Source of the DNA: Fibrobacter sp. UWH4
Lineage (GTDB): Bacteria; Fibrobacterota; Fibrobacteria; Fibrobacterales; Fibrobacteraceae
Assembly: GCF_900142475.1 (NCBI RefSeq)
Contig: NZ_FRAY01000005.1
Location: forward strand, 310,001 to 374,000
Length of the DNA: 64,000 nucleotides
Direction of reading: 5' to 3'
Part shown: in pieces, positions 3,378-31,691 of the stretch
Layout: the number at the start of each line of letters is the position of its first letter
How positions within the stretch are numbered: the stretch's first letter is position 1
Program-made: the position numbers and the translations under genes
The notes under the pieces: model-generated
Seen by the model: the letters and a program-made list of their open reading frames with translations, nothing else
Databases searched by the model: none
Told to the model about the DNA's origin: nothing

Positions 3378-3431
3378 TATTCATTCTCAATTTTTAATTT
3401 TCATCGCTCACTACTCGTCACCCATTCCGCA

Positions 3432-4562: not shown

Positions 4563-4642
4563 AATAAGTCCTTTGCCCAATCGGGCCAAAATTTGAATTG
4601 ATGCTTTATTCTCCGTGGCACTTGTCGTGCCCAGTGCGCCAA

Positions 4643-16131: not shown

Positions 16132-16159
16132 GGTGACACTTTCGACCTCCTCGGGTGTT
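16132..16159 (+). promoter_or_regulatory. Sigma-regulon element in front of the sigma gene
   Basis: GGTGACACTTTC is followed after 10 nt by GGTGTT. The same arrangement with the same spacing occurs at 19903-19929 (TonB receptor) and 31665-31691 (TonB/ExbBD operon). The spacing from GTGACA to GGTGTT (15 nt) is compatible with an ECF -35/-10 pair. The ATG follows only 8 nt after GGTGTT. Confidence 0.55.
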
Positions 16160-16167
16160 TCACTGGT

Positions 16168-16668
16168 ATGAACGGGAAAAATCTCTCTGAGCAATTGGCG
16201 TTTTCGAAACTGTACGAGGCTTATGCCCCGATGGTTTATCGCCGCTGCATGTTTCTGCTCAAGGACGAAGCCGAAGCGAAGGACATGGTACAGAACGTGT
16301 TTCTGCGCGTGTACGAGCGTGTAGAATCCATCGATCTTTCGCAACCGTCCAGCTTGCTGTGGAATACGGCGACCAGGCTTTGCCTGAACCGCATCCGTGA
16401 CAAGCGCCGCCGCGGACTTGACGTGGACTCGAGCGAGCTTCTGCTCAACATCGCCTGCGCCGAAGACGATGGCCGCGAAGCTAGTGGAATTCTCGCGAGG
16501 ATTTTTTCCAAGGAACAGGAATCGACCAGGACAATCGCCGTGCTCCATTATGTGGACGGCATGACCCTGGAAGAAACTGCGGAGACTGTAGGTCTTTCGG
16601 TAAGCGGCGTGCGCAAGCGTTTGCGTACCCTGCAGGCGAAAGTCAAGAATCTGGAGGTCGAAAGATGA
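16168..16668 (+). CDS. ECF-type RNA polymerase sigma factor
   Basis: 166 aa, the usual ECF length. Region 2: FSKLYEAYAPMVYRRCMFLLKDEAEAKDMVQNVFLRVYE. Region 4: STRTIAVLHYVDGMTLEETAETVGLSVSGVRKRLRTL. There is no clear Shine-Dalgarno and the putative -10 ends 8 nt before the ATG, so the message could be almost leaderless. The stop overlaps the next gene as ATGA. It probably controls its own operon and, by the shared upstream element, TonB-dependent uptake genes. Confidence 0.9.
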   Translation: MNGKNLSEQLAFSKLYEAYAPMVYRRCMFLLKDEAEAKDMVQNVFLRVYERVESIDLSQPSSLLWNTATRLCLNRIRDKRRRGLDVDSSELLLNIACAEDDGREASGILARIFSKEQESTRTIAVLHYVDGMTLEETAETVGLSVSGVRKRLRTLQAKVKNLEVER

Positions 16669-17444
16669 CGAATGTCAAACAAATTTCCGATTTCAAGTTG
16701 GAACGCTACCTTCTGGGGGAACTCCCCGAAGTCGAAATGGCTGCCCTGCGCAAGCGCGAGGCAGAAGACGAGCTCTTTGCGGCCCGTGTAAAGATGATGC
16801 GCGAGGAGGGCGAACACTTCCTTGCGGAAAATCCGTTCAGCGGATTGGAAAATAAGCTGGAAAAAGAGGAACGGGAGTTGATTTCGCCGAATCGGTCCTT
16901 CAGCGGGTGGTGGCTCCGGGTCGCTGCCGTGCTGGTTGTTGCGTTCGGCGTTTTCTCGTTGGTGGTGCTGAATCGCCAGACGGAAATCGTGAATGAATCT
17001 TCGGTGACTTCCGGAATGGATGTCGCGATGGCGGATGTCGATAACGGCACGCGCATCAAGGGAATGACCGCGGGTCTCGAAGTCTGGAAGAAAATGGGCG
17101 ATAGCGCCGTGCAGATGGTGAACCTGGGCGAGGCTCGCGAAGGCGACGAAATCCAGCTGCGTTACCGCGTTCCGCAAAAGTGCTTCGGTATGCTTTTCAG
17201 CATGGACGGTAACGGTACCGTCACGATGCACATGGGCGAAGGCAACCGTGCGGTCGAACTGGAACCGGGCAAGATGACCACGCTCCCGTTCGCCTACAAG
17301 TTGGATAATGCACCCAAGTTCGAAAAGTTTTTCTTGCTCACGTCTGGGGAAATGTTTGAGTTTGACGGGAATGATATCGACAAGACCCTGAAAAGCAGTG
17401 GTGTCGAATCGGTTTCGTTTACGTTGCGCAAGGTGGAAAAGTAA
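16665..17444 (+). CDS. Anti-sigma-like membrane protein with DUF4384-like domain
   Basis: 259 aa. The cytoplasmic N-terminus (LERYLLGELPEVEMAALRKREAED) resembles anti-sigma N-terminal domains but lacks the His-Cys-Cys zinc motif. One membrane span follows (~90-105: WWLRVAAVLVVAFGVFSLVVL). The periplasmic part (~135-255) with GDEIQLRYRVPQKCFGMLFSMDGNGTV resembles DUF4384, often found with caspase-like or kinase proteins. It is translationally coupled to the sigma gene and 11 bp before the caspase-like gene. Holding the sigma factor at the membrane is inferred. Confidence 0.8.
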   Translation: MTNVKQISDFKLERYLLGELPEVEMAALRKREAEDELFAARVKMMREEGEHFLAENPFSGLENKLEKEERELISPNRSFSGWWLRVAAVLVVAFGVFSLVVLNRQTEIVNESSVTSGMDVAMADVDNGTRIKGMTAGLEVWKKMGDSAVQMVNLGEAREGDEIQLRYRVPQKCFGMLFSMDGNGTVTMHMGEGNRAVELEPGKMTTLPFAYKLDNAPKFEKFFLLTSGEMFEFDGNDIDKTLKSSGVESVSFTLRKVEK

Positions 17445-17455
17445 GGGGGAGAACG

Positions 17456-19894
17456 ATGAAAAAGTTTATAGGAAAAATTTTGAGTTGCGATTTTGGTGTG
17501 AGCAGCATCGCGTTTTGCACCTTCTTTCTGATGGCGGTCCTTGCTTCGGCGAGTTTTGTGCACGCATCGGGCGAGTCTTCGGGCTCGATTGCGATTGAAC
17601 GCTACGTGTTTGCGGTGAGCGCGAATAACGGCGGTAAGGAACGCCCGCGTCTGCGTTATGCCGAAACGGATGCGCGCGCCTTTGCGGAAGTGCTTTCGCA
17701 GATGGGCGGCGTGCCGAAGCAGAATGTGTACCGTGTCACGGAGCCGAGTGTAGAGAGCCTCCAAAAGCAACTTGATGCGCTCGACAAGAAACTTGTCGCA
17801 GCGAAAACGGCAAAGTCTGCTAAAACCGGTAACGGTGCGGCTGAAGATTTCCGCGAAGAAGTGCTGGTGTATTATAGCGGTCACGCCGACGAAAAGGGGC
17901 TTCGCCTCGGCGAAGAAGTCTATACCTGGAAGGAATTCCGCAAGCGTATCGATGCGTTGAATGCCGACGTGAAAATCGCGGTGATTGATGCGTGCGGCTC
18001 GGGCGCCATCACGCGAGTGAAGGGCGGTGTCGCTGTCCCTGCGTTCATGGTCGACAAGAGTAGCGACATGAAAGGCTACGCCTTTATCACGAGCAGCACG
18101 CAAGATGAATCTAGCCAGGAAAGTGACAAGCTGAAGGGCTCCTTCTTTACACATTCGCTTGTAAGTGGCCTCCGCGGCGCCGGTGACATCAGTGGCGACG
18201 GCAAGGTGACCTTGTCCGAAGCCTATCAGTTCGCTTTCAACGAAACCCTGCAGAAAACCGAAGCGACGATGGGCGGCGCGCAGCATCCGAGTCGTGACAT
18301 GAACCTCGCGGGAACGGGTGATGTGGTGATGACGGATTTGCGCAGCACGAGCGCCGGCCTGGAATTCGACGACGATATCGAAGGGCGCCTCTTTATCCGC
18401 GACGACAAGGGTGAATTGGTCGCCGAAGTGTACAAGAAGCAGGGCCGCGCGATGAGTCTCGGTTTCCCTGCGGGAAAGTACAGTGTACGTCTGGAACGCC
18501 CCGTCGAATACAAAGAAGCCTCGGTGACGCTCCAGGATAATTACCGTGCGCGTCTTTCCCAGAAACAGTTCGCAGCGGTCTCTGCCGAGCGTACGACGCT
18601 TCGCGGCGAAATCAAGAACGACAACCGCCCCGATTCCGTGGAATATTCGATTGACTCGCTGGACCACAACGGAAAATACCGCGTGACGTTCAACCTGGTC
18701 GATAAGGATCGTGAACCCCGCAAGGGTGTGCAGCTGGGCCTGTTCGTGACGCGTACTGACAGCTATATGCTGGGAACCCAGGTGAGCCTTTTTGCAAACA
18801 TTGCCCGTAAGGAAATGCATGGTGTGCAGCTGTCGGCTGTGTACAACGGGTCTAAGGAACATTTTGAGGGCGCCCAGGCTTCAGCGGTTGTCAACTACGC
18901 AAAATCCTTTGACGGTGTACAGGTGGCGGCAACGGCGAACGTGACGAAGGACAAATCTTCGGGCCTCCAGATTTCACCCTCCCTCAACTATGCGGGCGAT
19001 ACTTTGTCTGGAATGCAGCTTGCTGCAGGCATTAATTGTGCCCGCAAGACCAAGGCTCAGGTTTCTGCAGCCATGAATGTTGCGAGCGAATCCAACGTGC
19101 AGGCGACTGCCGCGATGAACATTGCCGGTAAATCCGATGTGCAGGCCTCTGCTGCGATGAATATCGCCAAGAAATCCGACGTGCAGGCGACCGCCGCCAT
19201 GAATATCGCGGATGAGTCCGACGTGCAGGTTTCGACCTTGAACATTGCGGGTAAACTCGACGAGGTTCAAGTGGGTATCCTGAACATTACGGGCAAGGCC
19301 TCGGGCCGCCAGGTTGGTCTCGTGAATATCTGCGGTGACTGCGAAAAGACTCCGGTAGGCCTGATCAATATTGTGGGTAACGGTGTATGGAGCGCAACCG
19401 CCTCGATGAACGAAATGGGTGCGTTCGGCCTGTCTTTCCGCATGGGGACGCCTTATCTATTCACCGCTCTTGAAGGCGCCCGCCTGATTGAAAAGGGATC
19501 GCATTTCAAGAAATTCAGCGATATCTATGAAACGGGTGTGGGCCTAGGGACTCAGTTTGGTAAATATGGAAGCCATTTTGAGCTTGAGTATATGTTCCTG
19601 ACGGCGCAAACCCTCGATGTAGAGTGTGATGAAGACGACGAAGAGGTAAAAGTCGAATTCGAAGATGACGATGGTCCCAACTTTCATCACCGCCTGCGCT
19701 TGGGCTACACGACACAAGTATTCCCCTTCCTCGGACTTTCGGTGGGCGGAACGCTCAACTGGGCAACTATTGGCTATGCCGATAAAGTGTGGTTGAAACC
19801 GCGGGCTGAATACCACGACGACTTCGGCAGCGAAAAGCATGCAGGCCGTTGGTGGGCCGGTTTCTATGCCGGCATCACCGTGGGAAAATTCTAA
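17456..19894 (+). CDS. Caspase-family (C14-like) protein with LA_2272-type surface repeats
   Basis: 812 aa. Signal peptide (~1-38). Residues ~48-300 form a caspase-like domain with the catalytic pair H143 (VYYSGHAD) and C180 (VIDACGSG). Residues ~430-620 carry repeats of the type ..VQATAAMNIAGKSD.. and ..VQVGILNITGK../..VGLVNICGD.., as in LA_2272-family surface repeats. The last ~180 residues look like a small outer-membrane barrel (FELEYMFL, HHRLRLGYTTQ, final F). It is the third gene of the sigma/anti-sigma operon. Surface stress sensing or proteolytic signalling is inferred; its substrate is unknown. Confidence 0.8.
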   Translation: MKKFIGKILSCDFGVSSIAFCTFFLMAVLASASFVHASGESSGSIAIERYVFAVSANNGGKERPRLRYAETDARAFAEVLSQMGGVPKQNVYRVTEPSVESLQKQLDALDKKLVAAKTAKSAKTGNGAAEDFREEVLVYYSGHADEKGLRLGEEVYTWKEFRKRIDALNADVKIAVIDACGSGAITRVKGGVAVPAFMVDKSSDMKGYAFITSSTQDESSQESDKLKGSFFTHSLVSGLRGAGDISGDGKVTLSEAYQFAFNETLQKTEATMGGAQHPSRDMNLAGTGDVVMTDLRSTSAGLEFDDDIEGRLFIRDDKGELVAEVYKKQGRAMSLGFPAGKYSVRLERPVEYKEASVTLQDNYRARLSQKQFAAVSAERTTLRGEIKNDNRPDSVEYSIDSLDHNGKYRVTFNLVDKDREPRKGVQLGLFVTRTDSYMLGTQVSLFANIARKEMHGVQLSAVYNGSKEHFEGAQASAVVNYAKSFDGVQVAATANVTKDKSSGLQISPSLNYAGDTLSGMQLAAGINCARKTKAQVSAAMNVASESNVQATAAMNIAGKSDVQASAAMNIAKKSDVQATAAMNIADESDVQVSTLNIAGKLDEVQVGILNITGKASGRQVGLVNICGDCEKTPVGLINIVGNGVWSATASMNEMGAFGLSFRMGTPYLFTALEGARLIEKGSHFKKFSDIYETGVGLGTQFGKYGSHFELEYMFLTAQTLDVECDEDDEEVKVEFEDDDGPNFHHRLRLGYTTQVFPFLGLSVGGTLNWATIGYADKVWLKPRAEYHDDFGSEKHAGRWWAGFYAGITVGKF

Positions 19895-19902
19895 AAATTA
19901 AA

Positions 19903-19929
19903 GTGACGCTTTCTACTCTTTCAGGTGTT
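19903..19929 (+). promoter_or_regulatory. Sigma-regulon element in front of the TonB receptor
   Basis: GTGACGCTTTC-N10-GGTGTT, same spacing as at 16133 and 31665. It lies 58 nt upstream of the TTG start at 19987. Confidence 0.55.
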
Positions 19930-19931
19930 AC

Positions 19932-19965
19932 AATAGCAAATAAGGTTACCTTATTTGCTATTTTT
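19932..19965 (+). terminator. Long perfect hairpin with T-run between caspase gene and TonB receptor
   Basis: Arms AATAGCAAATAAGG and CCTTATTTGCTATT (14 bp, no mismatch) around TTA, followed by TTT. It can terminate the sigma/caspase operon. It begins 3 nt after the GGTGTT element, so a transcript started there would carry it at its 5' end or start within it. Confidence 0.6.
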
Positions 19966-19986
19966 AATTAGAACGCGAGATTTTGT

Positions 19987-22536
19987 TTGAAGCTTCAAAT
20001 TTGCATTATCGTTTTGTTGGCGGCAATCGCTGCTATGGCGCAAGAGACCGCGTCGGATTCCCTTGCGCTTGATACCCTTGCTCCGAAGGGGATTGTCTTT
20101 AACGGCGTCGTGCTGGATTCCTCTTTTGCGGCAGACGAAAAGCTGAATGTTGAAATCCTGGAATCGGGCGAGGCCTTGCAAACGACTGTCGGTAAGCCCT
20201 TCAGTGTTGTACTCCCCGAAGATACACTCTGGAATATCTGCGTTACCAATTCCGACACGGCCGGTGCCGAGAAGGAAAAGTGCTACGAACTCAAGTACAT
20301 TGGTGCGGAACGCCAGTTCTCGCAGGCGCTTGGCGAAGCTTTTGTAGACGATGCGTCTATGGATTCTGTCGCCCCTGCGGGGCTCCAGAATGACGGTTCT
20401 AATGCCGTTTCGCGCGACTCCGCTAGTGTCATTGCTCAAGATGGTCATCCTGGAGCGCAGCGACGGGATCCAGAGCAGTCCGCTTCGGATTCATCTGACA
20501 GTACCAAAGAGGATGTCAATGTCGATGCACTCCTTGCGGCGGGCGACAATTCCCGTGTGACCGAACTCAAGAAAGTGGTGGTACAGCTGCGTCGCCGTCC
20601 GAAGCGCAAACCCGGCGAATCCGTAGTTTCCGCGAAGTCCATCAAGCGTATGCCGGGGCTTGCCGAAGCGGATGTCATCAAGAGCATCCAGGCGCTTCCG
20701 GGCGTGGTCGCGAGCTCCGATTTCAGCTCCAAGATTTATGTGCGCGGCGGTGCCGCCGACCAGAACCTTTTCCTGTTCGACAATGCGGTGGTCTATTCGC
20801 CGGTGCATTTTTTCGGACTGTTCAGCACCTTCCTGGTCGAAGGCATAGACGATGTGCAGTTCTACAAGAGCGGTTTCCCCGCACAGTACGGTAACCGCCT
20901 GAGTTCCGTCCTCAAGATGGATGGCCGCGCAGGTGGCCAGGATACGGTCGACGAATGGTTCAGCAAGTCGAGCATCAAAATCAGCACTTTCGCTGCACAG
21001 GTCCATACCGAAGGCCATCAGGGACCCGTGCGCTGGATTTTTGCGGGGCGCACCACTTACATCGGCTATGTGCTTGACTTTTGTAACTACATCGGTCTTC
21101 TGGACCTGAGCCTGGATTATGAATTCACGGACTTGCAAGGGACCATGATGTATGATTTCTCCAAGGATACGCGATTCAAGTTCAGCTATTACATCGGCAA
21201 GGACCGCCTGAGTTTCGACCCGCTCTATATGGATTGGGGAAACATCGCCATTCCGTTCGGCATTTACCACCGTTTTAACGGGGACTGGGATTACAACGCG
21301 ACGCTTGCCTTCAGTGAATTCTACCAGACCATGAAAATCGGCGAACTCATGTCGATTGAAATGTATCTGTATACCTTCGCCGGCAAGCAGTGGTTGAATT
21401 ACCGCGGCATTCCGAACCATACGTTGACATTGGGTTACGAACTGGAATACGATTACGAACGTTACCAGGAAGCGATGGCGTCCATCAGTATCGCCGATAT
21501 CCAGAAACCTTTCCACCATGTGGCCTACGTGCAGGATGCCTGGAAACTCGCTCCTGATTACCTGCTGCAATATGGCCTCCGCTTTAACTACCAGACGGCG
21601 GCGGAACATTTCGGCGTGGAACCCCGAGCCTCCTTGACGGTGAACCTCGACGATTCCAAGACGCTTGAGTTCTACGGTGGCTATTACTTGCAGTACCTGA
21701 ATTCGATTGTCTACACCGACCAGGAAACTTTGAACGAATTCTATTACCCGGCAACGACAACTACCAAGGGAACGCATATCGATCCTGCTTCGTCGTGGCT
21801 GTTCGCGGCGGAATACAGCCGGCGTGGCATCCTTGACGATTACGATGCGACCGTGGGTGTCTATTACAAGACGCAGAACAATCTGAACACGTTCGTGATG
21901 CAGCTCGACAGCAACGAGGAAACGACTTCGTCCGATTTCGTGATGGCCGATCATTTTGGCACGGCGGACGGCTATTCGCTCGGCTACGAGCTTTCGCTGC
22001 GCAAGGATAAAGGCTGGTGGTTTGGCGGGATCAACTGGAGCCAGAGTATCAGCGTGATGCGCACCAACGACGGTACCAAACCGTACTATCCGAGTTGGCA
22101 TCAGCCTTACGCGCTCAAGATGGACATGGGAATCAACTGGAGTGGCGGCGAGGATGCCCTCCGCAAGCACAAGAAAAAAGGCCGCTACTTCCGTTCGTCG
22201 GTCATCATGAAATATTCGGCGGGAATGCCTATCAGCGAATACAAGGGTTGCTATATGTCGCAGGAGCTAGGACACCAGCAGTATAGCGACGAGGTGGTGG
22301 TGCTGCCGGGAAGCCGCAATGCAGGCCGTCAGTCGGATTACTTCCGCATCGACGTGAAGGCGATTGATGTCGGCCGCGAAGACAGTTGGAACTTCAGCTG
22401 GACCATCATCAACTTGACGGACCACAAGAACATGTTCTACACGTTCTACGATACGAGCAAGAATCCTCCCGAGAAGACCGAGATTACGCAGTTCCCGTTC
22501 TTGCCTATTATGTTAAGTTTCGAGATGTATTTTTAA
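19987..22536 (+). CDS. TonB-dependent receptor
   Basis: 849 aa. TTG start, chosen because it gives a proper signal peptide (LKLQICIIVLLAAIAAMA-QE). Residues ~25-195 form an unusual N-terminal region. The plug follows (~200-320: KRMPGLAEADVIKSIQALPGVVASSDFSSKIYVRGGAADQNLFLFDN), then a 22-strand-type barrel ending in an aromatic residue (LSFEMYF). A GTCAT...ATCC repeat lies in frame at 20444-20473 and encodes GHPGAQRRDPEQ in a flexible region before the plug. The upstream element links it to the ECF sigma regulon. The ligand is unknown. Confidence 0.88.
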   Translation: MKLQICIIVLLAAIAAMAQETASDSLALDTLAPKGIVFNGVVLDSSFAADEKLNVEILESGEALQTTVGKPFSVVLPEDTLWNICVTNSDTAGAEKEKCYELKYIGAERQFSQALGEAFVDDASMDSVAPAGLQNDGSNAVSRDSASVIAQDGHPGAQRRDPEQSASDSSDSTKEDVNVDALLAAGDNSRVTELKKVVVQLRRRPKRKPGESVVSAKSIKRMPGLAEADVIKSIQALPGVVASSDFSSKIYVRGGAADQNLFLFDNAVVYSPVHFFGLFSTFLVEGIDDVQFYKSGFPAQYGNRLSSVLKMDGRAGGQDTVDEWFSKSSIKISTFAAQVHTEGHQGPVRWIFAGRTTYIGYVLDFCNYIGLLDLSLDYEFTDLQGTMMYDFSKDTRFKFSYYIGKDRLSFDPLYMDWGNIAIPFGIYHRFNGDWDYNATLAFSEFYQTMKIGELMSIEMYLYTFAGKQWLNYRGIPNHTLTLGYELEYDYERYQEAMASISIADIQKPFHHVAYVQDAWKLAPDYLLQYGLRFNYQTAAEHFGVEPRASLTVNLDDSKTLEFYGGYYLQYLNSIVYTDQETLNEFYYPATTTTKGTHIDPASSWLFAAEYSRRGILDDYDATVGVYYKTQNNLNTFVMQLDSNEETTSSDFVMADHFGTADGYSLGYELSLRKDKGWWFGGINWSQSISVMRTNDGTKPYYPSWHQPYALKMDMGINWSGGEDALRKHKKKGRYFRSSVIMKYSAGMPISEYKGCYMSQELGHQQYSDEVVVLPGSRNAGRQSDYFRIDVKAIDVGREDSWNFSWTIINLTDHKNMFYTFYDTSKNPPEKTEITQFPFLPIMLSFEMYF
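20444..20473. repeat. GTCAT...ATCC repeat inside the TonB receptor gene
   Basis: GTCATCCTGGAGCGCAGCGA continues with CGGGATCCAG. It is in frame and keeps the gene open, falling in a non-conserved linker. Confidence 0.65.
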
Positions 22537-22564
22537 ATAGAAGGTTTTTTAGTAGGAATGTTTA

Positions 22565-22846
22565 GTCATCCTGGAAGGAGTAAAGCGACTGACGGGATCC
22601 ATGGTTGAAGTAAAGGTATGAATTCGGTGAATGTATAGAAGCTGTCATCCTGGAAGGCGTGAAACGACTGACGGGAACCATCGTTGAATTAAAGGTTTGG
22701 CTTTGATGAATGTATAGAAGCTGTCATCCTGGAAGGAGTGAAGCGACTGACGGGAACCATGGTTGAATTAAAGGTATGAATTTGGTGAATGTATAGAAGC
22801 AGTCATCCTGGAAGGAGTAAAACGACTGACGGGATCCATAGTTGAT
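22565..22846. repeat. Tandem array of 79-bp GTCAT-type repeats
   Basis: Three full units of exactly 79 bp start at 22565, 22644 and 22723, and a partial unit starts at 22802. Each begins GTCATCCTGGAAGG and carries ACTGACGGGA(A/T)CCAT and, in the full units, GAATGTATAGAAGC near its end. This fills the gap between the TonB receptor and the following lipoprotein. No unique spacers, so it is not a CRISPR array. Confidence 0.9.
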
Positions 22847-22861
22847 GAATAAGGCTGATTT

Positions 22862-24580
22862 ATGAATTATTGGAGATTGATAAATAAAATTGATGGATGG
22901 CGGAAGAGCCTTTGTTCCCTTGCGGTGTTTTTCTTGGTGGCCTGCAGCGATTTTCACGGTCCGTGGGAATACACCCCGGAAGAACGTGAAATCTACACGG
23001 GCATTTACACCTACGGCTATGTGGTCGAAAACCGTAATGCAGAAATCTGCTTTTCGAAGGTCTACGAATTGGACGAAACTGCTGCAGAGGATTTCGCTTT
23101 TTACGATAGCGCCTATGTCACGCTGCAAGGTCGCTTCAATCGTTCGTTCCTTGGTGATGTGGATACGACCATTGAACTTCATGGTGACAACTGCTTTACC
23201 AATAGTCTTTTTGAGGGTGTCGCGGGTGAATCCTATACGATGAACGCCTACTTTGAGTGGGACAGCTCGGGACACCGGGCAAAATCCAGGTACAAGGCAG
23301 TCGCGACAATTCCGAATGGCGTGAAAATCAAGGGAATGAACGTGCCTTTGCGCGACGGGAGCTATGTGTGGAAGGCGAACGAAAATTACGATGTCAATAA
23401 GGGCTTTGGAAGGTCGGCGAATTTTTCCGTCAAGTTCCTGGAATTCCCGATGGATATGGAATTCTTCAAGTGTGCCCTGGAGTTTGACAACACGGTGGGC
23501 GGAGTCCTCTCGGTCTTGAATTACGGGATGGAAAACGGTGAATCGGTGAAGACGACGTTCAACCAGATGTTCAAGGGAATGACCGATGCAGATTCGTCGG
23601 GGTACCGCGGAATTTCGATGCATGACCCGCTGGAAACGCAACAAAATTACGGCTATACGCTCAATCGTTGGATTGCCGGGCTCAATAACCTGGATACGCT
23701 CTACCTGATGAACATGATGCTGCCTATTGGCGAAGTCTCTGTTGACCTGTATGCGACGGACCGCGCCTATGTGGATTACGTGGAAAAGGTGAAGGAATCC
23801 GTATCCGATTCGCGTGTCGTTCCCGAGTCGAATATCGAAAACGGCATGGGAGTCTTTACGGGAATAGCCGTCTCGCATGTTTATTTGAATGTGAAGGGGG
23901 AGGGCGTGAACTTCAGCCATGTGGCCGATTACAACTGCGACAATTTGGAAAAATCCTGGGATTCCCGTGGATGCAGGCTCTTCCAGGATGTCGCGTGTGC
24001 AGGGTGGTCTGACTTGCACGGTTACGAAGACTTGATTTCGGCGAATGCGCATGCCTATGAACAATACCGGGATACGGTCTACAACAAGGATTTGAAAAAG
24101 TGCTACGCTTCCAACGTGAAGGCCGCCATGATGCTCGATACGGCCAGCTGGTCAATTTTCTTGCCCGATTCGATGGATGAAAAGGAAAAGTCCAATGCGT
24201 ATGCCGATGGTCTCAAACGTTATTGCGCCGCTAGCGGCTTTGAAAGTAACCATATCGCGGACTGCTCGGAACTTGAAAAGGAATGCCTTGAAGATCCCGA
24301 GAAGAACAACTGCAAGGAATATCTGTGGAACTGGTGTGCCGACCGCGGCTGGCCGGAATATGACCAATGCAAGAGTGCACTTGTGAGTCGCTACTACCTG
24401 ATGAACCAAAAGTCAAGTATTCTTCATCGCGAAGTTGAAGAAATTTGCAATGAATTTTTGCTGGGTGATAACGAGAAATCGACAGACGGCAAAATCAAGG
24501 TCAAGCTGGAATTCAAGACATCGATATGCAGAAATTGGTGCGAACTTGATTCTGCCAAGGAACACGCCGAATGCAAGTAG
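22862..24580 (+). CDS. Lipoprotein partner of the TonB receptor (DUF4249-like)
   Basis: 572 aa. The signal peptide ends in the lipobox FLVAC (Cys28). The N-terminal half (YVVENRNAEICFSKVYELDE ... YDSAYVTLQGRF ... GESYTMNAYFEW) has the beta-sandwich style of DUF4249 lipoproteins, which are commonly encoded next to TonB receptors in Bacteroidota. The C-terminal half is Cys-rich (about 14 Cys), suggesting disulfides. It lies 325 bp after the receptor, across the tandem repeat. A function in ligand capture at the outer membrane is inferred. Confidence 0.65.
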   Translation: MNYWRLINKIDGWRKSLCSLAVFFLVACSDFHGPWEYTPEEREIYTGIYTYGYVVENRNAEICFSKVYELDETAAEDFAFYDSAYVTLQGRFNRSFLGDVDTTIELHGDNCFTNSLFEGVAGESYTMNAYFEWDSSGHRAKSRYKAVATIPNGVKIKGMNVPLRDGSYVWKANENYDVNKGFGRSANFSVKFLEFPMDMEFFKCALEFDNTVGGVLSVLNYGMENGESVKTTFNQMFKGMTDADSSGYRGISMHDPLETQQNYGYTLNRWIAGLNNLDTLYLMNMMLPIGEVSVDLYATDRAYVDYVEKVKESVSDSRVVPESNIENGMGVFTGIAVSHVYLNVKGEGVNFSHVADYNCDNLEKSWDSRGCRLFQDVACAGWSDLHGYEDLISANAHAYEQYRDTVYNKDLKKCYASNVKAAMMLDTASWSIFLPDSMDEKEKSNAYADGLKRYCAASGFESNHIADCSELEKECLEDPEKNNCKEYLWNWCADRGWPEYDQCKSALVSRYYLMNQKSSILHREVEEICNEFLLGDNEKSTDGKIKVKLEFKTSICRNWCELDSAKEHAECK

Positions 24581-24613
24581 CGGCGGAGCTTGTTGCGGAT
24601 TAAATCCACCTGG

Positions 24614-26242
24614 TTAAATTCGCACGATTTCGTCGCACATGTCGCAGATGGCAGGGCGGTGCGTCACGAAAATCATCGTCTTGTTCGGGTAAGTCTCGAA
24701 TAGGCGACGGTAGAGTTCCGCTTCGGTCGCCTCGTCGAGCGAGGAACTGATTTCGTCGAACAGGAGAATGTTTCCCGGTCGCAAGAGACCGCGTGCAATC
24801 GCGATGCGTGCCGCCTGCCCTTCGCTGAGCCCGTAGCCGCGTTCGCCGAGTTCGAAATCGAGGCCTCCCTTGAGTTCCTGGACGTAATCGGCGCAGGCCG
24901 TATGGAGCGCCTCAAGCATGTCCTTTTCGGTGGCGTTTGGGCAGGCGAGTTGCAGGTTGTAGCGGATGGTCCCGCTCATGAGGGTGTTTCCCTGTGGAAC
25001 GTAGACGAAGTTTACGCGGGTGCTTTCCGAAACGGCCCCGACCTCATTTTCCGAATAAATGAGCATCCTTCCCGCATCGGGTTCAATGAAGCCGAGTAGC
25101 AACCGAAAGAGGGTGGTCTTGCCCTTACCTGTTTCGCCGAGAATGGCGGTTTTGCTTCCCGGTGCAAAGTCGTGAGAGAACTGCTGCATGACTTCGTGGC
25201 CGCTCCCGACGTAGCTGAAACTGATGTTTTCGAGCTTTACACCGAGGCTCCCCTGCATGACTTGTTCCGCTATCGTCAGGGAATCGCTTTCGCGGGCGCT
25301 GCTCTCAAGTTCGTTCAAGCGGTCGATGCTCGCTGTAGAATGTACCAGTTGCGGCATCAGGCCGAGCAGAGTCAAAATCGGGTGCTGGATTTGTCCGACC
25401 AGCTGCAAGAAGGCGGTCATCATGCCGAAGGTGATGGTGCCGTCGCGGAGCCCGAGGCCGCCCCAAATAAACGCGAGCAGGTATCCGAGGCCGAAGGCGG
25501 AGCCGATGGCGAAACGGGAATAGGTGGTGAAGCGCGTGCGGCGCAGGACTTCGCCTTCCAACTGGTCTTGCCTGGAATCGAAACGTTCCGTAACCCATTT
25601 CTCGCTCTTGAGCGAACGCAGCACGGCGTTGTATTCGACGCCTTCCTGTACCTGCATCTGAATCTTGCTTTCGCTGTTGCGGATTTCAAGCGTCATTTTG
25701 CGGAGCTTGCGCGCAATCAGCTTGCCGACAACGATGACTATGGGTGTCAGCAGCAACAGCGCCCACGCCAACCATGCGTCGAACCAGCGCATCAGTAGGA
25801 ACGCCCCCACCAGTTGGAGGGCCGTTACCGCCATCTGCGGAAGTGTATCGATCGTGGAAGTCGCTACGTTCTCGATATCCTTGGAAAGTCTCGACGATAC
25901 ATCGCCGGAATGCAGCTCCTGGCCGTTGTAGAGGTCGCGTGCGAAAAGCGACTTGAAAAGGTTCAGTCGAAGGGCGTTCGACTTTTTCACCATGGCTGAA
26001 GCGGTCATATAGTAGTACACGAGCCTAAGGACGATGGTGCCTACCATGGTCAGCACCAGGAACGCAATCATGCGTGCAATGTCGTCGCGGGTGCCCGTTC
26101 GGATGGTTTCGTCGATAAAACGCTTGCTCAACCATACCATCAGCAATCCGAGCGCAACGCGCCCGGTTCCCGCCAAAATCCGAATGGCGATGCTTGTGCG
26201 GAAACCCCGCATCGCCTGCCACAGGTAACGGGCGTATTTCAT
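24614..26242 (-). CDS. ABC transporter, fused permease and ATPase
   Basis: 542 aa half-transporter of the exporter type. Six membrane spans (~10-290) precede an ATPase domain with Walker A LGETGKGKTT, signature LSEGQAARIAIARG (LSEGQ instead of LSGGQ), Walker B NILLFDEISSSLDE and the switch His in FVTHRP. The ATG at 26242 overlaps the PqqD-like gene as ATGA, fixing the start. Gene order on this strand is HPr-kinase-like, signal-peptidase-like, PqqD-like, ABC. Export of a modified peptide is inferred from the RRE-like neighbour; no precursor peptide was found nearby. Confidence 0.85.
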   Translation of the reverse strand: MKYARYLWQAMRGFRTSIAIRILAGTGRVALGLLMVWLSKRFIDETIRTGTRDDIARMIAFLVLTMVGTIVLRLVYYYMTASAMVKKSNALRLNLFKSLFARDLYNGQELHSGDVSSRLSKDIENVATSTIDTLPQMAVTALQLVGAFLLMRWFDAWLAWALLLLTPIVIVVGKLIARKLRKMTLEIRNSESKIQMQVQEGVEYNAVLRSLKSEKWVTERFDSRQDQLEGEVLRRTRFTTYSRFAIGSAFGLGYLLAFIWGGLGLRDGTITFGMMTAFLQLVGQIQHPILTLLGLMPQLVHSTASIDRLNELESSARESDSLTIAEQVMQGSLGVKLENISFSYVGSGHEVMQQFSHDFAPGSKTAILGETGKGKTTLFRLLLGFIEPDAGRMLIYSENEVGAVSESTRVNFVYVPQGNTLMSGTIRYNLQLACPNATEKDMLEALHTACADYVQELKGGLDFELGERGYGLSEGQAARIAIARGLLRPGNILLFDEISSSLDEATEAELYRRLFETYPNKTMIFVTHRPAICDMCDEIVRI

Positions 26243-26508
26243 TCGACCACGTTGACTTTCTGCCATTCGCCGACAATCGCGATGACGTCGGCCTTGGCCT
26301 GTTCAGGGGAAACTTCGTATTCGTTCAGCAGAACTTCGGCGAGGGAATCTACAGTCCATTCGCCAAGGGTTTCCGCCTGTTTCCAGAGGAATGCCGCCGT
26401 TTCGTTCAGGCAAAGCATTTTTCCGAAATCGAGGGCTCCGATTCCTTCGCCCATAATCACCTGTTCGCCGCACACGTCGCGCAGCACAAAGCCGTTCTTG
26501 ATTTTCAT
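26239..26508 (-). CDS. PqqD-like (RRE) protein
   Basis: 89 aa. The sequence KIKNGFVLRDVCGEQVIMGEG ... LCLNETAAFLWKQAE ... LAEVLLNEYEVSPEQAKADV matches the PqqD fold, the RiPP recognition element that binds leader peptides. It begins 4 bp after the signal-peptidase-like gene and overlaps the ABC transporter start as ATGA, so four genes are tightly coupled. If this is a RiPP pathway, this protein should bind the precursor. Confidence 0.85.
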   Translation of the reverse strand: MKIKNGFVLRDVCGEQVIMGEGIGALDFGKMLCLNETAAFLWKQAETLGEWTVDSLAEVLLNEYEVSPEQAKADVIAIVGEWQKVNVVE

Positions 26509-26512
26509 ACTA

Positions 26513-26941
26513 TTATACTTTCCTATAAATCCAAAGCAGGTAGCGCCTCAAGGGTAAAAGAATATACCATATTTTGGCGGCCAAGCGGAAACGAAACGTC
26601 CCCAGGGAGCGTCGCTTGCCACCGGGAAGTACGACCCAGGTGACTTGCGCGAAAACGTCGCTCTTGCTGCAGTGCTCGCGTCCGGCGAGATTGCCGTCCC
26701 CCATCAGGGTCAGGGAACTTTTGTCCATCGATTCAATCCTATGGATCACGAAATGTCCGGTGTCCGCCTTGGCGAGCACGATGTCCCCGATTTTCAGCTC
26801 GCGAGGCTTCTCGAGAATCACGCTGTCGCGTCCGCCAACGATAAACGGGAGCATGCTCCGCCCGTTTACGGGGAAGGTCACGCTGACTCCGTCTTGAACG
26901 AGTCGGATAGCTTCGGACAGGATGACATCATCGGAAATCAT
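26513..26941 (-). CDS. S24/S26 signal-peptidase-like protein
   Basis: 142 aa. VTFPVNGRSMLPFIVGGRDSVILEKP contains the SM(L/R)P serine motif of S24/S26 peptidases, and GDIVLAKADTGHFVIHRIES continues the fold; the catalytic Lys is not where Lep has it (an R-to-H-type HRI is present). A C-terminal hydrophobic and basic end (IWYILLPLRRYLLWIYRKV) may anchor it. The ATG at 26941 overlaps the upstream gene as ATGA. Leader removal in the peptide cluster is inferred. Confidence 0.7.
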   Translation of the reverse strand: MISDDVILSEAIRLVQDGVSVTFPVNGRSMLPFIVGGRDSVILEKPRELKIGDIVLAKADTGHFVIHRIESMDKSSLTLMGDGNLAGREHCSKSDVFAQVTWVVLPGGKRRSLGTFRFRLAAKIWYILLPLRRYLLWIYRKV

Positions 26942-27939
26942 GCGATGGTTTCCTGGCAAAGTTTTGCTGCGGTTTCGTCTGGCAGGCATTCCAGGTGCCA
27001 TACGGGAACATGGGTGGCCAGGGCGTTTTCGGTTTGGTGGATTCCGTTTGCAATTTCCTTGTTCCAGCGCATTCCCGAAATGCAGGGGACAAGTGCGGCG
27101 TAGGCCGCGACTCCCTTTAAGGAAAAAATCTTGTTGTACGGAGCCTGCGAAAGCAGGACGAATCCACCGATGTCGACGACTTCGTTCTTGTAACACGGGG
27201 TCTTTCCGCTCCAGGGGGAACCGTAGACTTTCGCAGAAATCTTGCCGCCGTCCGCATTAAACAAGCGTACTATGGGGTTGTCGTCGTTGAGCAAGGTGGA
27301 ACCTTTGATGTACTGGAGCCATAGCCTCGCATGGGTGCTTTTGCCCGTGCCGCTTTTCCCGAGGAAAAGGTAGCCGCGGTCCTCGTGGCGGATGACTGCA
27401 GCATGAAAAAGGGCCGTCAGTTTGTCTGCCGTTGCCAACGAGTACAGGACCATCAGCGAGTTGTTCACTGCAAAGATGTCCAGGTGCGTTACCTTCTGCG
27501 CGCCCTCTTCTGTCATCCCTGTGTTCTTTTCTGTCATCCCCGCGAATGCGGGCGGACAGCACTTAGAACTCTGTTCTTTAGTGCGCATGGCCACCAGGGT
27601 GGGGATCTCCCTTTCCCGATGAACAAAAAGATTTGCTTTTTTGAAGTCCTTCTCGCAAACGAGAATCCCCGCGCACTTCCCGAACAGCCAAAAATCAAAT
27701 GTCGGCAGTCCTTCCGCCGTGCGCCCGCATAGAATGGCCTGCCCTTCTTCTTCCTGGCGGGTGTCTTCGGTGTATACAGGGGCGTCTGTGTCTGTGTGTA
27801 CAACAAGTGAAAATGCAGGGACTTTTACGGATTCGGTTTCAAACGGGGCGTAGTTGGTCATCTGCGACAGAAAACCCTCGCTTGCCTCGACAGAAAAAAA
27901 ATGTTCCGCCACCTTGTAGTAAATCGTCTTGTTTTGCAT
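26938..27939 (-). CDS. HPr kinase/PEPCK-like protein of the PqqD cluster
   Basis: 333 aa. The C-terminal half has the HprK-like P-loop FLGKSGTGKSTHARLW (GKSGTGKS at 194-201), DDNPIVRL and YGSPWSGKTPCYKNE, as in HprK-like proteins of lasso-peptide and PqqD-linked clusters. Residues ~121-148, between the N-terminal domain and the kinase, come from an in-frame GTCAT-type repeat (CCPPAFAGMTEKNTGMTEEG). It is the first gene of the four-gene cluster and follows the NagZ-like gene by 42 bp. Its substrate is unknown. Confidence 0.78.
   Translation of the reverse strand: MQNKTIYYKVAEHFFSVEASEGFLSQMTNYAPFETESVKVPAFSLVVHTDTDAPVYTEDTRQEEEGQAILCGRTAEGLPTFDFWLFGKCAGILVCEKDFKKANLFVHREREIPTLVAMRTKEQSSKCCPPAFAGMTEKNTGMTEEGAQKVTHLDIFAVNNSLMVLYSLATADKLTALFHAAVIRHEDRGYLFLGKSGTGKSTHARLWLQYIKGSTLLNDDNPIVRLFNADGGKISAKVYGSPWSGKTPCYKNEVVDIGGFVLLSQAPYNKIFSLKGVAAYAALVPCISGMRWNKEIANGIHQTENALATHVPVWHLECLPDETAAKLCQETIA
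27512..27610. repeat. GTCATCC...GGATC repeats inside the HprK-like gene
   Basis: Two GTCATCCC starts (27512 and 27533) and the palindrome CCCGCGAATGCGGG are followed, after ~50 bp, by GTGGGGATCTCC. The insertion keeps the reading frame and encodes ~28 residues. Confidence 0.7.
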
Positions 27940-27981
27940 TAGGCTTTGTTGCTGTGGTCGTATTGTTGCTGGTAAATGTCC

Positions 27982-29166
27982 CTATTTCGTCGTTTTTAAC
28001 GCAAGAATTCGCTTGACGCTTTCGTCAATGCGGCTTTCTTTTATGTCGCCTTTTTCAACCGCATTCACGACGGCGTCGAATACCTGCGTGAAATCCTTGG
28101 AGCAAAGTACCACGTCGACGCCTGCCTGAATCGACTTGATGGCGGCTTCGGCGTTCCCGAATTGCGTGGTGATGGCGCCCATGTCCATGGCGTCGGTTAC
28201 GATGATTCCCTTGAATCCGAGTTCGCCGCGGAGCTTGTCTTGCAGAATGACCGATGAAAGTGTCGCGGGCAGATCGTCACCGGTGACCTTCGGGGCGGCG
28301 ATGTGCGCGGTCATGATCATCTGCGCGCCCGCCTCGATGCCTGCCTTGAACGGGATCATTTCGCATTCGAGCATTTCTTCCCAGGTCTTGTTCGTTTCGG
28401 CGTAACCGGAATGCGTGTCGGTCTTTACGTCACCGTGACCGGGAAAGTGCTTGAGCGTGCCGATGACACCTGCGGAATCGAGGCCGTTCAGGTAACTTAC
28501 CACGAATTCGGCGGCGGTCTCGGGGTCGTCCGAGAAGGCTCGCGGCCCGATGACGATGTTCTCGGGATTCGTGTTCACGTCGGCGACCGGGGCGTAGTCG
28601 ATGTCGAATCCGTATTCCTTGACATAGCTTCCGATGGTGAAAGCGGCTTTGTAAGCTTCGCTCGGGTCGCCGCTTTCGGCGATGGCGGCCATGCTTTCGT
28701 ACTTGGGTACGTTGAAGTTCTCGTTGTTCGCGATGCGGGCGATGCGACCTCCCTCTTCATCTATCGCAAGGAGCGGAGAACCGTTCAGCGTTCTGATTTC
28801 GGCAATGAATTCACCGAGTTGCGCTTCGTCTACAATGTTGTGTGCGTAAAGAATCATTCCGCCAACGGGGTAGTCCTTGTTGACGGCGAGTATAGTTTTG
28901 TTCACGTGCTGCAGCTTGTAATCTGGGAGTTCCGCATATTCGTTCCAGTGGATGCTCGTGTCGAGTGCCTCGGGACGCACGAAGAACATCTGCCCCACCT
29001 TCTCGCGGATGCTCATTTTGCTTATGTCGAGCGTGGAGGTCCCGGAGCTTGTCGAATGGGCTGGCCCGCTCGAAGAGTCGTCGCCGCAGGCGGCAAGGAG
29101 TGCTATGGATGCAACTGCAATTGTTATTTTGGAGACTCGCAGGGCGCGATACAATCCATTAGCCAT
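27982..29166 (-). CDS. GH3 beta-N-acetylhexosaminidase lipoprotein (NagZ-like)
   Basis: 394 aa. Lipobox LLAAC (Cys27), then a low-complexity Ser/Gly/Thr linker. GH3 domain: REKVGQMFFVRPEA, LLAIDEEGGRIARI, YAPVADVNTNPENIVIGPRAFSDDP, the catalytic loop KHFPGHGDVKTDTHSG and the nucleophile region VTDAMDMGAI. This is the NagZ type, removing GlcNAc from peptidoglycan fragments; here it is a lipoprotein rather than cytoplasmic. RBS AAAGGA. It lies 19 bp downstream of the LD-carboxypeptidase gene; both act on cell-wall fragments, so they form a likely recycling unit. Confidence 0.9.
   Translation of the reverse strand: MANGLYRALRVSKITIAVASIALLAACGDDSSSGPAHSTSSGTSTLDISKMSIREKVGQMFFVRPEALDTSIHWNEYAELPDYKLQHVNKTILAVNKDYPVGGMILYAHNIVDEAQLGEFIAEIRTLNGSPLLAIDEEGGRIARIANNENFNVPKYESMAAIAESGDPSEAYKAAFTIGSYVKEYGFDIDYAPVADVNTNPENIVIGPRAFSDDPETAAEFVVSYLNGLDSAGVIGTLKHFPGHGDVKTDTHSGYAETNKTWEEMLECEMIPFKAGIEAGAQMIMTAHIAAPKVTGDDLPATLSSVILQDKLRGELGFKGIIVTDAMDMGAITTQFGNAEAAIKSIQAGVDVVLCSKDFTQVFDAVVNAVEKGDIKESRIDESVKRILALKTTK
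29039..29063. repeat. Palindromic repeat element inside the NagZ-like gene
   Basis: GGTCCCGGAGCTTGTCGAAT followed by GGGCTGG. Related to 4101-4124 in znuA; it encodes HSTSSGTS in the lipoprotein linker. Confidence 0.5.
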
Positions 29167-29185
29167 TTTATAAATCCTTTAAAAA

Positions 29186-30358
29186 CTACTCTTCAATCTT
29201 GAAAATCTTTCCGGCGAGCATCTTGAGCAGCGACTTCGAAAGGGCTTCCTTCGGGGTGAGCTTTTCCGTATCAACTTCCTTGCGTGTGCCGCCAATGTCA
29301 AAGGCGAGCATTGCGCCATCGTCGGTGACTTTCATCTGAACTTCAGCTCCCATCACGATCGGAAGGTTGATGTCGTCATGACCCGCCGGGAATCCGCACA
29401 TCACGGGAATGTCGTATTTTTTCAGATACTTGGAAAGCATGGCCTCAGTGCTTTCGTAGTCGAGGTCGGTGCCGGAATCCACGAATTCGCCGAGGATAAC
29501 GCCCTTTACATTTTCCATGACGCCGTGCAGTTCGATCGAGTGGAACATGCGGTCAATGTTGCGCAGGTTTTCGCCGATTTCTTCCATAAAGAGGATGATG
29601 CCTTCGTTCTGGAATACGTCGATGTCGGATGCGCCGATGAGAGGAACGAAGGTCGACATGTTGCCGCCCACGAGAATGCCCTTGGCGGTCCCGTTCTGGT
29701 TATACTTGTGCGAAGGAACCTTGTATACGGGAACATCACCCTTGAGAAGATCGCGCAGGAGCTTGCTGTTGTCTTCGTCGCCGCCGGTCTTTGCGATGCT
29801 TGAGCTCATGGTTCCGTGAATGCTAGCGACTCCCGCCTTGGTCTGCATGGCGTGCAGCGTGGTGATGTCGCTGTAACCGATGACCCACTTGGGATTTTCC
29901 TGGATGAGCTTCGGGTCGATGAGGTCTACCAATTGGATGGTGCCGTAGCCGCCACGGTTGCAGAGGATCGCCTTGATGCTGGTATCCTTGAGCGCGGCCC
30001 TAAAGTCGTCGGCGCGTTCTTCGATGGTGCCTGCGAATTTGCCTGCATCGAGCTTGTCGACATTTTTACCGATAACCGGTTCGAAGCCCCATTCCCTAAT
30101 GACATCGGCCGTTTTCTGGATGTTGGAATCGGGGGTGGTGTACGAAGGTGAAAGCAATGCAATCTTGTCGCCTTTTTTTAGGAATGCCGGGGTCGTGTTT
30201 TCGAGTGGCATCGCGAGCTTTTCGTTTTCTGCAGCAGTACTTTCGATGGTGTCGCTGCTACAGGCCGCAAAGGCCATGGCGATAGACAATGCGATTACGG
30301 GGCGTACCTTGCCTTTCCGGAACGAGCATCCGCTCTGCGTATTCTTCATAAAATTCAT
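29186..30358 (-). CDS. LD-carboxypeptidase-like lipoprotein (peptidase S66)
   Basis: 390 aa. The signal ends near AFAAC. S66 family features: LKKGDKIALLSPSY, CNRGGYG, the nucleophile in VIGYSDIT, GKGILVGGNMS, the Glu in VILGEFVDSGTD and the His in GFPAGHDDINLPI. It removes the terminal D-Ala from muropeptide tetrapeptides. The ATG at 30358 has AAAAGGAAG upstream. It is followed directly by the NagZ-like gene. Confidence 0.9.
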   Translation of the reverse strand: MNFMKNTQSGCSFRKGKVRPVIALSIAMAFAACSSDTIESTAAENEKLAMPLENTTPAFLKKGDKIALLSPSYTTPDSNIQKTADVIREWGFEPVIGKNVDKLDAGKFAGTIEERADDFRAALKDTSIKAILCNRGGYGTIQLVDLIDPKLIQENPKWVIGYSDITTLHAMQTKAGVASIHGTMSSSIAKTGGDEDNSKLLRDLLKGDVPVYKVPSHKYNQNGTAKGILVGGNMSTFVPLIGASDIDVFQNEGIILFMEEIGENLRNIDRMFHSIELHGVMENVKGVILGEFVDSGTDLDYESTEAMLSKYLKKYDIPVMCGFPAGHDDINLPIVMGAEVQMKVTDDGAMLAFDIGGTRKEVDTEKLTPKEALSKSLLKMLAGKIFKIEE

Positions 30359-30616
30359 AAACACTTCCTTTTTTGTAATTGCCACGGCACTATGAACGGG
30401 GGAACTGCGCTGATAACTTTGTAAACGCAGGCATTTGAAATCCGTTGAAGCACCTCTTTTTCTATGTAAAATATAATATACTCGCAAATTTCGGGCATTG
30501 TCATATTACGGAAATCTTACGAGAATGATGGTGGAAAATGATGCTGAACATGAAATTTTTTTATTGCATTCCTTGTAAAAATATATTATCTTCAGTGAGG
30601 AATAAGGAAGAAAAAA

Positions 30617-31639
30617 ATGAAAAGAATTATCGTGTCAGCATTAATTACTTGCGCAACCGTTTTTGCTCAGGAAACGGTTGCACCTGCCGATACGGCAGCC
30701 AAGGTCACCGAGTCTGCTGCCCAAGTGGTGGAACCTGCAGCTCCGGTCACTGAGTCCGTCGAAGCGGCTTCTGCAGAACCGGCGACACAGACTGCTGAAG
30801 TGGCGGAGCCTGCCGCCTCTGCCGAAACACCCGCTGGTACTGTAGCACAAGCTGCAGAACCGCCCGAGGCGCCCGCAGAAACTGCCCAGGCTGTAACCTC
30901 TGCCGAAATGGCTGAGCCTATTGCTCAGACCGCCGTTCCCGTTTCCCAGCCTGCCGAAGGGCCGGTTGCCGAATCTTCCGCTACGGTTTTCGCCGCCTCT
31001 GCTCCCGCTCCCGTTAACGCTCCTGCCGCCGAAAAGACCTGGACGCACTTGTGGGGTGTCGGTGCGACGGTTCCTGTGGAACAGTACAAGTCTCGCGGCA
31101 ATAAAATTGACTTGATTAACTACGGCCTCGATCTCTCCTATACGGGAGTTGCCCGTTTTGGTCTTGCGTTGCATCTGTCCATTGCGGCGGGTTCTTCGTT
31201 GACCGACAACATCCGTTTTGAAAAAAACGACGACTGGCTGGTCGGATCTTTCGGTGCGGTTGAAGCGGGTCTCGGTTTCAGCCCCGTGAACACCAATGGC
31301 TTTACGTTGGTCGTGCTTGCCGTGGCTGGCTACGAATATGCCGAGTTCGAATCCGACGAAAATGAGGTTCGCCATTCTGAACTTGGAATCGTCGAACGCC
31401 GTTTCACGGAAACCATGGGCGCACTATCTGTCGGTGGTGACCTCGTGCTGCGTTTCGGACTTTCCGAACATATCGGCATCTTCGCGAGCGTGGGTGGCCG
31501 CTGGCTCCCCATTACGGTGACCGAATCTTCGGTGAGGTACGAGAAGGATGACGATTACGTCCGTACCGAAAGCTACATCGAAGATGATCGAGGCGTCTAT
31601 AGCGTCGTTCCTGTCATTGGTGCGATGTGGAAGTTCTAG
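30617..31639 (+). CDS. Outer-membrane beta-barrel protein with Ala/Pro-rich N-terminus
   Basis: 340 aa. Signal peptide (RIIVSALITCATVFA-QE). Residues ~22-150 are almost only Ala, Pro, Glu, Thr and Val, a periplasmic stalk. Residues ~155-340 show alternating strands (VGATVPVEQYKSR, GLDLSYTGVARFGLALHLS, AVAGYEYAEFES) and the end VPVIGAMWKF with terminal Phe, typical of small barrels. RBS AAGGAAG. It precedes the TonB/ExbBD operon but has its own upstream region. Function unknown. Confidence 0.75.
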   Translation: MKRIIVSALITCATVFAQETVAPADTAAKVTESAAQVVEPAAPVTESVEAASAEPATQTAEVAEPAASAETPAGTVAQAAEPPEAPAETAQAVTSAEMAEPIAQTAVPVSQPAEGPVAESSATVFAASAPAPVNAPAAEKTWTHLWGVGATVPVEQYKSRGNKIDLINYGLDLSYTGVARFGLALHLSIAAGSSLTDNIRFEKNDDWLVGSFGAVEAGLGFSPVNTNGFTLVVLAVAGYEYAEFESDENEVRHSELGIVERRFTETMGALSVGGDLVLRFGLSEHIGIFASVGGRWLPITVTESSVRYEKDDDYVRTESYIEDDRGVYSVVPVIGAMWKF

Positions 31640-31664
31640 CAAAACAAAAAAATATGTTGTCTAG

Positions 31665-31691
31665 GTAACACTTTCCGCTTGGTAGGGTGTT
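31665..31691 (+). promoter_or_regulatory. Sigma-regulon element in front of the TonB/ExbBD operon
   Basis: GTAACACTTTC-N10-GGTGTT, third copy with the same spacing. It lies 42 nt upstream of the DUF3450 gene start. Confidence 0.55.

Follow-up and report, generated by a model that had tools for sequence, protein, structure and literature searches.

The locus examined here, a 64,000-nucleotide stretch of the Fibrobacter sp. UWH4 genome (referred to here as the window), raises two linked questions: whether a single ECF sigma factor governs both a TonB-dependent receptor and the machinery that energizes it, and what the caspase-like protease encoded beside the sigma factor and its anti-sigma factor contributes to such a circuit.

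A putative promoter element and its targets

An earlier note on this DNA reported that GTRACRCTTTC-N10-GGTGTT occurs three times with equal spacing, and this was confirmed: three exact, identically spaced matches are present on the forward strand (16133-16159, 19903-19929, and 31665-31691), where none is expected (100 shuffles of the window). The downstream genes are also as the note described them, and all lie on the + strand. The first predicted promoter (GTGACACTTTCGACCTCCTCGGGTGTT) ends 8 nt 5' of the start codon of a 166-aa ECF sigma factor (16168..16668; sigma70-ECF, 2.3e-21), which comprises sigma-70 regions 2 and 4 only (Sigma70_r2 [PF04542], 2.7e-13, beside PF08281, 1.7e-06) and is followed by genes for a 259-aa anti-sigma factor (16665..17444) and an 812-aa caspase-like protease (17456..19894). 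The second precedes an 849-aa TonB-dependent receptor (19987..22536) with a Plug domain and a weak barrel match, in which Pfam detected no STN domain at the thresholds used. The third precedes an operon that holds a complete TonB2/TtpC-type set in one cluster: a DUF3450 coiled-coil protein (31733..32578; PF11932, 2.5e-20), an ExbB with a long, TtpC-like N-terminal extension (32575..34182; MotA_ExbB, 4.7e-31), a second ExbB (34242..34925; MotA_ExbB, 1.6e-26), ExbD (34980..35384; PF02472, 1.6e-30), TonB (35630..36277; TonB_C, 8.1e-07), and a TPR protein (36334..37413). A weakly DUF4249-like lipoprotein (22862..24580) has no site of its own here, as it does in some relatives.

A hairpin, GCAAATAAGG/CCTTATTTGC, starts where the receptor mRNA is predicted to begin and is followed by TATTTTT, a U-tract in the transcript (19932..19965, + strand). 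It is found at 19 of 45 distinct receptor sites, including receptors unlinked from the caspase, and three of its base pairs have two-sided changes (covariation). The hairpin looks like a terminator within the receptor's own leader.

The genome-wide search for the exact motif that the earlier note had called for retrieved the same three window sites and no others from the whole genome (3,696,015 bases, 100% complete), and a control pattern gave no match. The note's statement that there is no fourth copy thus holds for the exact motif in both window and genome, and the window contains no further site even with up to three mismatches. It does not hold for a one-mismatch site (GTAACATTTTC-N10-GGTGTT) on another contig (C3) of the same genome, 5' of a gene for an NADPH-dependent FMN reductase; 1.75 kb from it is a decayed, near-identical duplicate of promoter and gene remnant (both at about 2990-4800 of locus L161). 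The exact motif describes the signal too narrowly. GTRACRCTTT-N11-RGTGTT fits the genus, with GTRACA-N15-RGTGTT as its most constant core, and the geometry is that of a promoter: two boxes at constant spacing, always oriented toward the gene.

The two-box motif lies 5' of the sigma factor's own operon in all 51 Fibrobacter sigma loci, where inspection placed GGTRACACTTTT-N10-RGTGTT or a close variant 8 nt 5' of the sigma start, as well as in several other phyla. Across 80 Fibrobacter genomes, GTRACRCTTT-N11-RGTGTT gave 192 sites, compared to 1 for the reversed pattern, with at least one site in 73 genomes. Sigma gene and site tend to occur together (71 genomes with both, 5 with neither, 2 with the sigma gene only, and 2 with the site only; Fisher p = 1.8e-5). 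The five genomes with neither are all ≤84% complete, and the two with the sigma gene only have near-matches at the right place. In the two genomes with the site only (G029, 99% complete, and G027, 71%), neither sigma factor nor caspase was detected, and one site precedes a single combined cluster encoding receptor, lipoprotein, DUF3450, ExbB, ExbB, ExbD, TonB, and TPR proteins (L219 and L220). These two genomes are the main counter-observation to a sigma regulon, and could be explained by gene loss or binning. A TAnnTTTG box is present upstream at 28 of 50 sigma sites. Its general enrichment is small, and the signal was too weak for us to claim a housekeeping box near the sites.

The earlier note held that common occurrence of the motif 5' of unrelated genes would refute its proposal. 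Such cases were looked for throughout the genus, and nearly all examined sites precede the same few genes. Besides the sigma operon, these are the genes for the TonB receptor and, in some species, its lipoprotein, the DUF3450 operon, and genes for NADPH-dependent FMN reductases (PF03358) and for a flavodoxin-like protein of 398 aa. Rare additional targets are a small HXXEE-like membrane protein (L138 and L159) and a YbjQ-like protein (L126), both named from sequence reading rather than from a database match, and one site (L108) has no gene downstream. In several loci (L006, L007, L033, L044, and L089), an FMN reductase gene with its own site lies directly 5' of the sigma operon, a pattern seen in many species. 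The recurrence of FMN reductases among the targets hints at a redox-linked substrate.

Orthologues of the window genes were scanned using a matrix built from the sigma sites alone and a threshold of 1% of the null. Sites above this threshold precede 22 of 26 linked receptor orthologues and 18 of 20 DUF3450 orthologues, in support of the second and third window promoters. The exceptions fall mostly in one divergent group (L048, L060, and L072-L074), in which the receptor gene lies closely 3' of the caspase gene. Only 1 of 23 lipoprotein genes has a site of its own; most directly follow the receptor. Of the five Plug-domain receptors and the five or six ExbD loci in the window genome, a single one of each kind has a site, which points to a private receptor-energizer pair rather than a general TonB switch. 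A second Plug-domain receptor without a site reaches into the window at its edge (window 1-82; contig C5:309798-310082, minus strand).

The restricted set of targets, the excess of sites over the reversed pattern, the co-occurrence of sigma gene and site, and the unlinked copies described below all support the note's proposal that the sigma factor controls both receptor and energizer. No RNA-level data bear on it. We hold the regulon as described, with flavin reductases beyond the note's list, to be highly likely on the evidence of sequence, transcription from the sites being inferred.

Unlinked copies and occurrence in other phyla

Separation of the genes does not remove the element. Receptor or DUF3450 genes on contigs other than that of the sigma factor still carry it (L105, L103, and L095), and elsewhere in the family it is also found at receptor genes (L247, L263, and L264) and a DUF3450 gene (L240). 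Two sister genera lack a caspase gene beside the sigma/anti-sigma pair and instead encode the caspase elsewhere, with a site of its own. Seven such unlinked caspase loci were found (L242, L243, L244, L255, L260, L261, and L262), most of them with the start codon 8 nt downstream of the site. The spacing seen for the window sigma factor (16133-16170) recurs at the L242, L244, L255, L260, and L262 caspases. Given a start codon 8 nt after the motif, the mRNAs of the sigma factor and of most unlinked caspases are probably leaderless, unlike those of most other targets. The putative promoters of these unlinked genes are the best evidence that the caspase is a member of the circuit and not a mere neighbor of the sigma factor.

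Beyond the family, genes for sigma factor, anti-sigma factor, and caspase-like protein occur together in Spirochaetes, Acidobacteria, Gemmatimonadetes, and a Vicinamibacteria assembly, and GTGACAC-N14-GGTGTT or something close to it lies 5' of the sigma gene. On a Latescibacterota contig, the sigma pair and the site are seen up to the contig end. Apart from the sigma site, matches to GTGACAC-N14-GGTGTT at one mismatch in distant genomes were near background. No receptor adjoins the module in the other phyla, so the wiring to TonB looks specific to the Fibrobacter family. At one locus (L083), the reverse strand 5' of the sigma gene has a perfect GTGACAC-N14-GGTGTT, which suggests divergent sites with one common box. 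A search for relatives of the caspase and the anti-sigma factor on plasmids found none.

The caspase-like protease and the anti-sigma factor

The anti-sigma factor was assigned by gene order, which is kept in 51 of 51 loci, and by a weak NCBIfam antisigma match. Its predicted parts are N-terminal helices, a membrane helix (residues ∼81-102), a disordered stalk, and an Ig-like periplasmic domain (residues 133-259; model pLDDT 84). No FecR domain was found: Pfam at E values up to 1 returned only a weak DUF4384 match and a chance Wzy_C match, and a link to DUF4384 was rejected as below the cutoff. No family was assigned to the Ig-like domain, as many sandwich folds matched at similar Z scores (best 9.4, tied). 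A sequence search of solved structures gave no informative match for the anti-sigma factor or the caspase.

For the caspase-like protein, the sole Pfam match is Peptidase_C14 (1.5e-10). In this protein, an export signal precedes the caspase domain (residues 44-297), which is followed by beta-rich LA_2272-type repeats and a strand-rich C-terminus, predicted to form a barrel, that ends in Phe. Its predicted model aligns with procaspase-7 (Z score, 18.2; 212 residues aligned; rmsd, 3.1), and H143, D178, and C180 are invariant in 33 caspase sequences, the His-Cys dyad being present. The D-x-C active site fits the orthocaspase class. The model as a whole is of moderate quality (pLDDT 71.7, pTM 0.44). 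The small outer-membrane barrels NspA and OprF stand at the top of the Foldseek list for this protein; the list gives no model range, and placement of the barrel at residues about 687-812 rests on the strands in the model. In barrels of the NspA/OprF type both ends are periplasmic, from which we infer that the protease domain is in the periplasm. The earlier note had suggested a caspase-like surface protein as part of the circuit. Membership in the circuit is borne out insofar as the caspase gene is a target, with its own site when unlinked, but the inferred topology favors a protease anchored in the outer membrane and facing the periplasm over a surface protein.

A short signature, R-x-K-G, links the two proteins. 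In the caspase, R-V-K-G-G (residues 187-191; 18014..18028, + strand) begins 7 residues after the catalytic Cys180 in a low-confidence linker (pLDDT <50 for residues 181-221). In the anti-sigma factor, R-I-K-G (residues 130-133; 17052..17063, + strand) is the proposed cut site. The signature is found beside the catalytic Cys in 33 of 33 aligned caspases and at the border of stalk and domain in 32 of 33 aligned anti-sigma factors, with I, L, V, T, A, S, M, P, G, or F at the variable position. Among systems with an adjacent caspase, 82 of 84 anti-sigma factors have it; the stricter figure is 82 of 85, counting L304, whose caspase was missed by the automatic count and whose anti-sigma factor reads QIKG. 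Other departures are L085 (TIKG in the anti-sigma factor) and L287 and L319, where a caspase is present and the anti-sigma factor lacks the signature; in L319, the Arg is lost in both proteins. Across 19 reference proteins from the regulon and its neighborhood, R-x-K-G turned up at no other position. Paralogous sigma pairs whose downstream DNA was read and is caspase-free (L288 and L295) lack R-x-K-G, as do L291 and L293, whose contigs are short.

The probability of R-x-K-G in a shuffled version of the anti-sigma factor itself is 0.078, so a single occurrence is unremarkable, and the weight lies in conservation at one place. Orthocaspases cleave after basic residues (PMC6426788). From these sequence data, it is plausible, though not shown, that the R-x-K-G just beyond the membrane helix of the anti-sigma factor is where the caspase cuts. 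R-x-K-G also borders the folded domain, however, and its conservation in the anti-sigma factor could be structural; the copy in the caspase might shape the substrate pocket. In addition, the co-occurrence of signature and caspase is not independent, owing to common ancestry.

A proposed circuit, its rivals, and known systems

We propose a circuit in which the ECF sigma factor would recognize GTRACA-N15-RGTGTT and drive its own sigma/anti-sigma/caspase operon, one TonB receptor with its lipoprotein, the energizer operon, and a distant FMN reductase. At rest, the sigma factor would be held by the one-helix inner-membrane anti-sigma factor, with the Ig-like domain of the latter in the periplasm, and the exported caspase would sit in the outer membrane by way of its C-terminal barrel, facing the periplasm. 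Upon a signal, the caspase may mature by cutting itself at the R-x-K-G-G linker and then make the first cut of a cascade, at R-x-K-G of the anti-sigma factor just outside the membrane helix. Later proteases, which are inferred, would complete the cascade, and the freed sigma factor would raise the receptor, the energizer, the reductase, and its own module. Taken in full, cleavage included, this mechanism is our leading explanation, and we consider it somewhat probable without transcript or biochemical data: sites, targets, conservation, predicted folds, and R-x-K-G are read from sequence, and transcription, topology, cleavage, and later proteases are inferred. The wider reading remains tentative, a little short of an even chance, namely, that an outer-membrane-anchored caspase acting as first cutter of a transmembrane anti-sigma factor at R-x-K-G is a module common to several phyla, wired in Fibrobacter to TonB uptake and flavin reductases.

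The same regulon is compatible with a caspase that is an output: an envelope protease induced by the sigma factor, with other proteins as its substrates. The anti-sigma factor would then sense the signal directly or be cleaved by a different protease. In favor of this reading, the caspase gene remains a sigma target where it is unlinked, and envelope proteases are often members of ECF regulons. Against it stand the signature common to protease linker and anti-sigma stalk and the absence of that signature from paralogous pairs without a downstream caspase, and we regard it as unlikely while keeping it in view. Signaling of the FecI/FecR kind, in which a substrate-bound TonB receptor passes the signal to the anti-sigma factor, would suit a regulon that includes receptor and energizer. 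It appears improbable given that the anti-sigma factor has no FecR domain and the receptor no STN domain at the thresholds used, and that in other phyla the module is found with no receptor next to it.

Two further explanations concern the repeated element itself. It could be a transcription factor operator, as GTRACAC/GTGTTAC forms an imperfect inverted repeat whose arms are separated by roughly two helical turns and the sites at L269 and L084 are near-palindromic. The right arm past GTGTT is variable, however (A 0.64, C 0.64), neither the asymmetric CTTT nor the orientation changes, the 8-nt distance to the start is kept for the sigma factor and most unlinked caspases, and the element lies 5' of the sigma gene in several phyla and co-occurs with it. 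A palindromic operator is disfavored by the unconserved right arm and fixed orientation, and we give the operator reading very little credence. That the motif is a chance or housekeeping sequence can practically be dismissed given zero expected matches in shuffles, the ratio of 192 sites to 1, and targets that are orthologous across the genus.

In the proposed circuit, a prokaryotic caspase would gain a specific predicted substrate, namely, its operon partner, with a cut site at R-x-K-G in the stalk, and a transcriptional readout, so that its role becomes directly testable. Prokaryotic caspase homologues have mostly been discussed as death proteases, and their substrates are mostly unknown. 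The analysis also defines a putative regulon for Fibrobacter, gut bacteria that are key fiber degraders of herbivores. Sigma-70/metacaspase operons of the same kind were reported in 2012 from Myxococcus, Anaeromyxobacter, Haliangium, Sorangium, Ralstonia, and Fibrobacter (PMC3501461); the passages of that report consulted here raise cell death as a possible role and describe neither a promoter or regulon nor an anti-sigma role or a cleavage site. The operon was therefore already known, and the regulon and cleavage signature are apparently unreported, as we found no published account of either in the literature.

Relief of ECF sigma inhibition by a caspase-family protease, proposed here, has a counterpart in the type III-E CRISPR Craspase/CASP-sigma system, where Csx29 cuts Csx30, an inhibitor of an ECF sigma factor (PMC10028731); that sigma factor also autoregulates, as the present one is inferred to do. 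Craspase is an RNA-triggered TPR-CHAT protease with Cas7-11, whereas the present system has an exported Peptidase_C14 protein, a transmembrane anti-sigma factor, and an uptake regulon. Neither TPR-CHAT nor Cas7-11 was found: Peptidase_C14 is the only Pfam match, and no cas gene was recognized among the neighbors read. Protease neighbors proposed to control the sigma factor are likewise known for ECF54 (CHAT, subtilase, or carboxypeptidase), which is described without an anti-sigma factor (PMC8999054), unlike this module, and have been noted for EACC2 systems (PMC8195603). The gene set of the 31.7- to 37.4-kb operon resembles the Vibrio TonB2/TtpC energizers (PMC6957404), from which it differs in its inferred control by a caspase-type ECF sigma factor; a role in iron uptake is not shown here.

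With FecI-FecR-FecA, the circuit has in common an ECF sigma factor, a transmembrane anti-sigma factor, and a TonB receptor. It differs in that no FecR or STN domain was found, for which reason FecIR membership was rejected, and in that the sigma factor would also control its own TonB energizer and a protease. The E. coli RpoE-RseA-DegS-RseP pathway (PMC8103513) similarly has an autoregulated sigma factor and a one-helix anti-sigma factor cut in the periplasm, as proposed here. DegS, a serine protease with a PDZ domain, sits in the inner membrane, whereas the present protease combines a caspase fold with a predicted outer-membrane barrel; within the operon, which alone was examined in this respect, the protease is caspase type and not of the HtrA type with PDZ. 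By analogy, the system would work like RseA/DegS signaling with a caspase in place of DegS, without being assigned to that family. If the proposed mechanism is true, it would constitute a signaling route from outer membrane to cytoplasm that is distinct from both FecIR and RpoE/RseA.
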